This document shows, piece after piece, positions 16,124 through 18,808 of a stretch of DNA of 39,808 nt. Position 1 is the stretch's first letter, and each line of letters starts with the position of its first letter. Source of the DNA: Gammaproteobacteria bacterium (GTDB taxonomy: Bacteria; Pseudomonadota; Gammaproteobacteria; UBA6429; Thiohalophilaceae); assembly GCA_029881995.1 (NCBI GenBank), contig JAOULO010000030.1, positions 1 to 39,808 on the forward strand. The letters are read 5' to 3'. The notes under the pieces were generated by a model that saw only the letters and a program-made list of their open reading frames with translations, searched no databases and was not told the origin of the DNA. The position numbers were made by a program, and so were the translations under genes.

Positions 16124-16169
16124 TAGGGGGGGGTGGTGATTAGATGGGTAGTTGGTCTTTTCTTTTATT

Positions 16170-16485
16170 TGGAATCGCTATTGCGATGCTGGATCTAAGT
16201 CAGGTCTCGTCCTGACAGACGAGTTACTTTTGTTTCGGCAATAGTAACCAAAACCATTGCCTCCAATGATGGCGCAAACGTGTGTTTGGGTTTTGGTTTT
16301 TTGTTGAGCATTGGCAGAAGGGGCAGTCGCTCCCGGCATCCATGCCTCCCGCGACACTAGTACATCCCTGTACGTCGTCCCAGCCCCTCTGCCAATGCGG
16401 CGACATCCCTGTCGCCACCTATCTATATTTTAAAAAACCAAAACCCAAACACGCGCCATCGAAGTCGGCACAACCCCGAAGCGAA
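16170..16485 (+). repeat. Hairpin element, copy A
   Basis: This 316-bp element shares its order of parts with copies B and C. From the left: a short hairpin (ATCGC/GCGAT), the overlapping pair GTCAGG/CCTGAC and CTCGTC/GACGAG, a hairpin GTTACT/AGTAAC, then outer arms starting GATGGCGC (16268-16302) and ending GCGCCATC (16432-16460). These arms enclose a GCATTGGCAGA-type stem and a GGCGACA/TGTCGCC hairpin (16399-16416). Here the loop of the main stem is enlarged and carries two extra hairpins (GGCAT/ATGCC at 16335-16346 and GTACA/TGTAC at 16360-16373). It ends with GAAGTCGGCA and CGAA. Short ORFs inside are products of the repeat. Confidence 0.9.
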
Positions 16486-17278: not shown

Positions 17279-17546
17279 TGGAATCGACTATCGTCGATAC
17301 TGGATCTAAGTCAGGTCTCGTCCTGACAGACGAGGTACTTTTTGAAGGACCAAAAAGTACCCAAAAAGTCCACCTCCTGAGATGGCGCAAGCGTGTGTTT
17401 GAGTTTTGGTTTTTTGTTGAGCATTGGCAGAAGGGCTGTCCATAGCCCTCTGCCAATGCGGCGACATCCTTGTCGCCCCTTATTGATATTTAAAAAACCA
17501 AAACCCAAACAAGCGCCATCGAAGTCGGCACCAACCCCAAAACGAA
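17279..17546 (+). repeat. Hairpin element, copy B
   Basis: This 268-bp copy has the same plan as A. The first hairpin is ATCGAC/GTCGAT. The third is GGTACTTTTT/AAAAAGTACC. The outer arms run from GATGGCGC (17381) to GCGCCATC (17520). Inside are the GCATTGGCAGA(A)GGGC / GCCCTCTGCCAATGC stem with one bulged A and the hairpin GGCGACATCCTTGTCGCC. It is nearly identical to inverted copy C and in the same direction as A. Confidence 0.92.
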
Positions 17547-17616
17547 TTAGCTATCTTGTTGAAACAAAGAATTATTGTTAAGTTTAAACATATCAATATT
17601 CAAAGTTATTTACTGC

Positions 17617-18507
17617 ATGAGATTAAACGCAATTTATTTCCGCATTATTCTAGTAGCCCTATGTATTTCTTTGTCTCCAGTTGCTAAAGCTGGCTTATAT
17701 CAGTTACATGCTGAGCTTACGGAAGCTATCTTAAAGAAAATTAATAACAAATATCCTTTACCAGAAAAAATCTTATGGAGTAATCTTAACTTTGAAACAA
17801 AGTCATACGAACAAGAGAAACAAAAACTAAAAAATGTATTACACAGAATTAGAACTAACACCAGTAAAGAAGCAATATCATGTCAGTTATTATTACTACA
17901 CGTTAATCTTCTAGATTATCGAAATTTTGCGACAGGATCTTCTGACTTATCTAAAATACCCCCCGGTTGGTACACGAAAGCAAATCAGCTTACCGATATG
18001 GGTGTAAAAATCATTTATTCAGGTGCACCAGAAGCCATATCATTTTACTATTTTGGGAGCTTAGGTAATGAAATCGTAAAATTTACTGGTACTTACTGTA
18101 GTCAGATATATAAGCTATTTAGTATTCAAAATGAACAATGGCATTATCGAAGTAATATGTCGGATTATGAGTGGATCAACCTTAAAAGTAAGAAATTACA
18201 CAATTTATTGAAAAATAGAAGCTGGGAAAAAGAAGAAAAGGCGCTTTTTAGATTTTATGAACTTACTTTGTTGTTAGATCAATGGACAAACTGTGGTTTA
18301 TTTGATCCCACGCCTGAGGAAATCAACCAATTCTGGGAAATGCGATATAAAAACGAAACAAAAATTAAGCAGGTTGTTTCTAAAATAAATCAATTAAAAA
18401 ATCTTGTTAAAAGCGCTAATCAAAATGATGAAATATTATATTATATTGAGAAAAAACTTCCGGTCGAAGATAACTGGCCTAATTCATGTGCGCCAAAAGA
18501 TGTATAA
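17617..18507 (+). CDS. Orphan AT-rich gene, predicted exported protein
   Basis: The product has 296 residues and no family I recognise. The ATG at 17617 is chosen over the TTG at 17575 because it begins a clear signal peptide (MRLNAIYFRIILVALCISLS, then PVAKA-G). The mature protein is mostly helical-looking and charged and carries four cysteines (SCQLLL, TYCSQI, TNCGLF, NSCAPK) that could form two disulfides, consistent with a periplasmic or secreted location. Aromatic clusters (EAISFYYFG, EQWHYRSN) stand out. The base composition is much more AT-rich than its neighbours, with codons such as AAA, TTA and ATA prominent. It sits between inverted repeat copies B and C, which suggests acquisition by horizontal transfer. 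No function is assigned. Confidence 0.8.
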   Translation: MRLNAIYFRIILVALCISLSPVAKAGLYQLHAELTEAILKKINNKYPLPEKILWSNLNFETKSYEQEKQKLKNVLHRIRTNTSKEAISCQLLLLHVNLLDYRNFATGSSDLSKIPPGWYTKANQLTDMGVKIIYSGAPEAISFYYFGSLGNEIVKFTGTYCSQIYKLFSIQNEQWHYRSNMSDYEWINLKSKKLHNLLKNRSWEKEEKALFRFYELTLLLDQWTNCGLFDPTPEEINQFWEMRYKNETKIKQVVSKINQLKNLVKSANQNDEILYYIEKKLPVEDNWPNSCAPKDV

Positions 18508-18542
18508 CTATCAGTTAACACTGAATTAAATATGACAGCTTG

Positions 18543-18808
18543 TTCGTTTTGGGGTTGGTGCCGACTTCGATGGCGCGTGTTTGGGTTTTGGTTTTTTAAA
18601 TATCAATAAGGGGCGACAAGGATGTCGCCGCATTGGCAGAGGGGCTGGGATGCCCCTTCTGCCAATGCTCAACAAAAAACCAAAACTCAAACACACGCTT
18701 GCGCCATCTCAGGAGGAGGACTTTTTGGGTACTTTTTGGTCCTTCAAAAAGTACCTCGTCTGTCAGGACGAGACCTGACTTAAATCCAGCATCGCATCAG
18801 CGATTCCA
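18543..18808 (-). repeat. Hairpin element, copy C (inverted)
   Basis: This 266-bp copy lies on the minus strand and matches B almost throughout, including the GGTACTTTTT/AAAAAGTACC hairpin, the bulged main stem with a different loop, and GGCGACA/TGTCGCC. Outer arms span 18569-18708. Its first hairpin is ATCGC/GCGAT as in A. With B it forms inverted repeats around the orphan gene. Confidence 0.92.

Follow-up and report, generated by a model that had tools for sequence, protein, structure and literature searches.

The window, by which we mean the whole 39,808-nucleotide stretch that we analysed (contig JAOULO010000030.1 of a gammaproteobacterial genome from the Thiohalophilaceae), holds ordinary neighbours around the feature described here: RF3, a cNMP-binding protein, an MFS-type transporter, an amidohydrolase and ValRS. 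Among them lies a gene on the forward strand (17617-18507) that encodes a protein of 296 residues with, by eye, a signal-peptide-like start. An earlier note on this DNA had called this gene an AT-rich orphan, with base composition unlike its surroundings, and both points were borne out. Its GC content is 0.316 against 0.466 for the window, and just 3 of 779 windows of the same length, taken in steps of 50, are equally AT-rich. The protein has no relatives in Pfam, NCBIfam, plasmids, phages or viral contigs and no match in 368 other genomes of the class, its own genome being the one positive of 369; against the PDB there was a single, chance-level match (E 0.85). AlphaFold2, run without an alignment, gave a poor model (mean pLDDT 52, pTM 0.54). 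The signal peptide in the note's description is matched by the start that we see, but the cysteines number five in total, and the count of four applies to those after the AKA site. Promoter-like sites are not in excess in the stretch that contains the gene (7 against 6.3 expected).

The gene is enclosed by two inverted copies of one element, whose recognisable limits in the window are 17279 and 18800. The left arm, copy B (17279-17563, plus strand; z -9.6 for its fold as single-stranded DNA), ends towards the gene in an inner tail that we call type 1 (about 17521-17563). The right arm, copy C (18526-18800, minus strand), is inverted with respect to B, and also carries a type-1 tail. As had been claimed, the two are nearly identical: 17295-17563 and 18526-18794 align without gaps over 269 nt, with 252 identities (94%; BLAST E 6e-114 for C against B), and each is the closest copy of the other among those aligned. 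A third and more diverged copy, A (16163-16485, plus strand), lies downstream of RF3 and runs from outer to inner end on the plus strand; its core (16268-16464) scores 154 bits with R1, one of the two models of the arm used here. The central loop of copy A contains an extra hairpin insert at about 16325-16385. Small extra hairpins are likewise nested inside the loops of copies on contigs C43, C108 and C113, and some of these insertions have loops of the ATCC/GGAT type. At the gathering threshold, Rfam gave zero matches in the whole window.

The arm is about 270-300 bp long and is made of three outer hairpins followed by a long stem around two further hairpins. In arm B, the predicted outer hairpins (17283-17361) are HP1 (17283-17298), HP2 (17310-17327) and HP3 (17334-17361), in a module order that can be seen by eye in other copies; the core (17381-17524) consists of the enclosing stem and two inner hairpins with TCC loops, which read GGA on the opposite strand. 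The cores of arm B and arm C (18565-18708, minus strand) score 159 and 168 bits with R1, a model of which both sequences are themselves part. The core spans 145 nt and has 43 consensus pairs. Among 28 closer sequences, 25 of the 43 pairs have changed on both sides, against 9.1 in shuffles, and covariation is 0.244 against 0.085 (0 of 500 shuffles); 96% of the cells that should pair do so, compared with 41-49% when the partners are slid. In a wider set of 48 arms, most of them taken from genomes at a greater distance, covariation reaches 0.747 against 0.185 (0 of 500), with 0.08-0.10 for slid partners, and 42 of 43 pairs have changed on both sides against 34.9 in shuffles, in an alignment fitted to the structure. 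The TCC/GGA loop is kept in 47 of the 48 arms for each inner hairpin, and in 26 and 28 of the 28 closer sequences. G-U pairs make up 2.1% of the standard pairs. Because repair between inverted repeats can also keep stems paired, covariation of this kind is by itself no proof that selection acts on an RNA or a single-stranded DNA form.

When copy B was compared with its own genome by BLAST, 40 matches were found, some of them pieces of one copy. The inverted pair around the window gene is thus real, but it is not alone: it is one of ten convergent pairs in the own-genome loci that we fetched, the others lying on contigs C130, C116, C111, C16, C52, C17, C117 and C43, with a second pair, 5.8 kb apart, on C16. 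Neighbouring arms within 7 kb of each other in these loci are convergent in 10 cases, tandem in 2 and divergent in 0 (p 4e-5 against one quarter). Within eight of the ten pairs, the arms are 68-84% identical. Arms without a detected partner exist too, several of them near contig ends. Base composition follows the orientation of the arm: the inner side has the lower GC in 28 of the 29 own-genome arms measured with the second model, R2, with means of 0.367 inside and 0.500 outside, though the 29 cases are not independent, because paired arms share their inner region.

The same polarity is seen to varying degrees in other genomes, with a lower inner GC in 2/2 arms of G001, 2/3 of G004, 6/8 of G010, 7/8 of G009, 4/5 of G160, 5/5 of G161, 4/4 of G283, 1/3 of G171 and 13/25 measurable arms of G008. 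Pooled over ten genomes, neighbouring arms are convergent 33 times, tandem 13 times and divergent twice, a figure biased by the choice of G010 loci where pairs had already been seen. For the arm counts, 59 of 61 and 69 of 102 rows of two arm listings were kept, and the remainder were dropped as opposite-strand shadows of listed arms. In G008 the arms look like plain dispersed repeats. The sole pair in G008 at a distance of 1.1 kb encloses what appear by eye to be core genes, lspA-like and FKBP-like, at a GC of 0.50. R2 matches number 74 in G008 and 41 in G009, and many are unpaired in the loci fetched (for example L198-L225).

What the arms enclose differs from pair to pair. Cargo is unrelated between the pairs of the own genome, and many of the proteins start, by eye, like lipoproteins or exported proteins. 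Ten cargo proteins were searched against Pfam: an S41 peptidase (C17), an AAA_13 protein (C117), a Porin_7 (C14) and a DUF5128 beta-propeller (C116) passed the cut-off, those of C130 (DUF2971) and C16 fell under it, and four had no match.

Among relatives, R1 detected the arm in 15 of 40 genomes of the family (E 0.001), and a scan of 369 genomes of the class under stricter filters found it in 12 (E 1e-5); by eye, the order HP1-HP2-HP3-core recurs in several other families. An exact pattern of the core matched five contigs of three named genomes, one of them a Chromatiales MAG, and had no match in viral contigs. Some relatives carry the pair without a gene. In nine convergent pairs of G010, the cores are 77-80 bp apart, and by eye each spacer is one type-1 tail joined to one tail of a second type, type 2; such empty units occur in two more genera, with 79 bp (L106) and 76 bp (L108) between cores. 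Spacers of intermediate length are found as well: 145 bp in L140, 234 bp in L145 and 145-248 bp in four G008 pairs. Filled units are present in L142 and L141 (G010), L143 (G004) and L144 (G001), and G161, from another family, has two pairs that each enclose a single ORF (91 and 125 aa; GC 0.32 and 0.41, with flanks of 0.51-0.55). Wherever a type-2 tail adjoins a gene, in 8 of 8 units examined, the gene reads away from the tail.

At the position of the window gene itself, five relatives that keep both neighbours have neither the gene nor a detectable arm between RF3 and the MFS gene, which are about 110 bp apart in G019; the absence is weak evidence for four of the five (G003, G019, G020 and G024), as those genomes have few arms or none anywhere. 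The comparison with an empty site that the earlier note had proposed worked at the distance of genus or family only, not at strain level. Two genomes of the same genus have, by eye, a different upstream neighbour of the MFS gene; G002 has an arm some 2.1 kb upstream of that gene.

Several units also have features of integrons. The own genome encodes one integron integrase over the cut-off, intI on C88 (443 bits, cut-off 265), adjoined by attC sites and by a site that we read as attI; intI is over the cut-off in 32 of the 40 family genomes, and no arm was found at nine intI loci. The C88 gene (10688-12094, L100) lies in a frame of 468 aa from the first start codon, or 472 from stop to stop, against 315 positions in the model, and several relatives have similarly long frames. 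Our home-made attC scan produces many false positives, and the sites counted here are those that by eye show canonical boxes together with a long paired stem. No intI lies in the array of the C16 island, whose first part has four attC and whose last three ORFs have none; attC sites were also found by the scan in the C43, C45 and C60 islands.

Sequences resembling attI were found in 8 of 15 own-genome stretches that separate an arm from the gene next to it, namely on C16, C113, C26, C43, C117, C17, C52 and C111 (the C82 stretch is on the 3' side of its gene; C60 and C108 were left out). For each of the eight, none of 500 mononucleotide shuffles did as well in one or more of the comparisons with C88, C16 and C113. 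Against C88 alone, C52 is a marginal case (score 25, with 24 as the highest among the shuffles), and the C43, C26 and C117 sites do not match C88 itself. No such site was found in the other seven stretches, nor in L142 and L144 of the relatives. The 3' end of attI has three exact copies in the genome, one at C88 and the others next to two type-2 arms; copies with one mismatch lie at C103 and at C52, the latter a short way upstream of where the cargo begins. C111 is among the matches with two mismatches, which mean little alone, since all matches with up to two mismatches number 30 against 22 in the control. Type-2 tails may hold a promoter, with TGATC, 17 nt and TAGGCT in 7 of the 12 full tails (13 listed); this is suggestive, but the spacing proves little because the tails are homologous. 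The window gene has no attI-like site (142/500, 294/500 and 291/500 shuffles in the three comparisons), and the home-made scan found no attC in its islet. The window islet is consequently neither a CALIN, defined by at least two attC without an adjacent intI, nor an integron, defined by intI and attI beside a cassette.

On balance, we lean towards reading the window feature as a filled unit within a cassette platform that is dispersed, non-autonomous, bounded by arms and akin to integrase-less integrons. A unit would be ordered arm, inner tail, cargo, inner tail, arm, with the same arm end facing the cargo on both sides, and in the empty form the two tails would meet to leave 76-80 bp between the arm cores. 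The cargo would be AT-rich and foreign-looking, of one or several genes, and often (by eye) for exported or membrane proteins; in some units it would sit behind an attI-like site, and a few would hold attC. Because attI-like sites occur in part of the units and attC in a few, at least part of the cargo may have been loaded in trans by an integron integrase encoded elsewhere in the genome, or may have arrived as an intI-less piece of an integron. The arms and their covarying fold, the polarity in the own genome, the empty and filled forms and the attI-like or attC sites of some units are observed at the level of sequence. From them we infer that the arms spread as mobile ends and that IntI would load cargo in trans; the window gene would have arrived by the same route as other cargo, although it has neither attI nor attC, which may have been lost or never have been there. 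Several observations count against the platform reading. Besides the missing attI and attC, both window tails are of type 1, whereas each of the nine empty G010 units pairs a type-1 with a type-2 tail; no obvious target duplication was seen at ten units, no arm at nine intI loci, and no transposase tied to the arms. Seven of the 15 stretches lack an attI-like site, the later ORFs of the C16 array lack attC, and the polarity is not general (13/25 in G008, 1/3 in G171).

The earlier note had named two layouts for this locus, a composite mobile cassette and an invertible segment. The first is broadly supported by the fixed arm end that faces AT-rich cargo at many loci, by the empty units and by the gene-free RF3-MFS interval of five relatives, weak for four of them. 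A rival reading, in which each arm is an independent, MITE-like, non-autonomous transposable element and nearby copies carry the DNA between them, as in TIME-COMP or in MITE-flanked integrons, seems to us doubtful. Arms without a detected partner, the unrelated cargo and the identity of 68-84% in most pairs all suit such composites, for which class 1 integrons flanked by MITEs are a precedent (PMC10969869). Chance pairing, however, would not yield 10 convergent and 0 divergent neighbours in the own genome, nor a polarity in 28 of 29 arms, and spacers of 76-80 bp in empty units point to the pair, not the single arm, as the unit. Composites of the TIME-COMP type have terminal inverted repeats with a target-site duplication; the inverted arms are present, and there is no obvious target duplication at the ten units: the longest direct word shared near the outer ends, where the boundary is not sharply defined, is 6 bases in the window and 6-8 over all ten. 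An invertible segment, in which recombination between B and C would flip the gene, is highly improbable. Its inverted repeat of 269 bp at 94% identity is there, and B and C are each other's closest match, a pattern that gene conversion or inversion could produce; beyond the repeat, nothing supports it. No recombinase-like ORF lies between the arms, no promoter-like site is listed within arm B or C, the arms are only 68-84% identical in eight of ten pairs of the wider family, and the gene keeps one direction in 8 of 8 examined units with a type-2 tail.

The arms could also be read as RNA. The closest described element is TwoAYGGAY (RF01731), and its model matches the arms over the whole model length, with scores of 42.8 for B (minus strand), 40.8 for C (plus strand) and 28.8 for the third window copy, just short of the cut-off of 43 for B and C. 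In eight other own-genome loci, 7 of 16 arms reach the cut-off, all on the outward strand. Rfam types the family as Cis-reg; the part of a 2010 survey that treats it considers it a probable RNA, probably not cis-regulatory, and makes no link to CsrA there (PMC2864571), and CsrA binding has been proposed for it elsewhere (PMC4333381). In the literature that we found, its function is given only as a proposal. The arms might be TwoAYGGAY-type RNA elements, transcribed outward, that bind CsrA/RsmA through their GGA loops, or terminators that insulate foreign genes, with mobility incidental. The kept loops, the scores, the proposed CsrA binding and an excess of terminator-like sites between 16100 and 18900 (10 against 3.2 expected) agree with this. 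Nevertheless, no arm passes the cut-off in 12 loci from other genomes, and the low share of G-U pairs may suit DNA hairpins or inverted-repeat repair better. RNA function alone leaves the empty pairs and the capture of cargo unexplained, and we judge this reading distinctly unlikely.

Several known systems come close to these units. In contrast to the Rfam family, the TwoAYGGAY-like core is here one part of a longer element that has further hairpins and encloses cargo. With integrons and CALINs the units share AT-rich orphan cassettes, attC (C16, C43, C45 and C60), attI-like sites and an intI elsewhere in the genome; they differ in being bounded by structured inverted arms, in that several hold one gene and no attC, and in that the attI-like sites have no intI beside them. 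The portions of two accounts of CALIN origin that bear on this make no mention of such arms (PMC12444791, PMC8618304), and we found no open-licence paper that joins TwoAYGGAY, or arms of this kind, with integrons. MITE-flanked integrons are the closest functional analogue; in them, as in TIME-COMP and the integron mobilization unit, short inverted elements flank integron material. In the reviewed MITE-flanked integrons, the flanking MITEs are identical copies (PMC10969869), and TIMEs are described as derived from Tn3 transposons (PMC13367494), whereas the arms described here are diverged, with covarying stems, and no target duplication was found. The REP and REPIN sequences of RAYT transposases resemble the empty unit in that hairpin elements form inverted pairs around a short spacer. 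The arms are several times the length of a REP, and the own genome has one RAYT (Y1) transposase match over the cut-off (C91) and one under it (C122), neither in the window.

As the element borders other AT-rich islets, several with integron-type sites, it may be part of a gene-cassette system of which we found no description. It is possible, and we put it forward tentatively, that TwoAYGGAY-type arms are the ends of a widespread family of mobile docking units, which would distribute orphan attI platforms over a chromosome so that one integrase loads many sites in trans. If this is true, the Rfam RNA TwoAYGGAY would be the arm of a DNA element in at least some Gammaproteobacteria. The islets also offer a possible genomic context for an RNA family listed since 2010. 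By what route gene cassettes and lone orphan genes end up outside integrons is an open question. It becomes testable, by alignment and by recombination assay, where a single covarying element, seen both empty and filled and accompanied by orphan attI-like sites, marks the islet borders.

Some copies in the own genome have unusual forms or surroundings. On C14 (L043, 1843-3299), an arm is apparently split by transposase-like ORFs, which by eye is an IS insertion into the element. On C130 (46433-46772; L040, 2934-3273), two inverted outer halves share one core, giving a near-palindromic form without cargo or tails. Many arms, for example in L048, L050 and L052, have directly outside them a GC-rich hairpin repeat (CCCCCTCC...GGAGGGGG...AGGGGGTGGTGATC), often on one side of the unit only, and a related repeat adjoins intI on C88. 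The islet on C117 (L051, 3829-6637) encodes the AAA_13 protein, of 720 aa, together with an ORF of 190 aa. The AAA_13 domain occurs in some anti-phage nucleases, and this resemblance makes a defence role possible for that islet.
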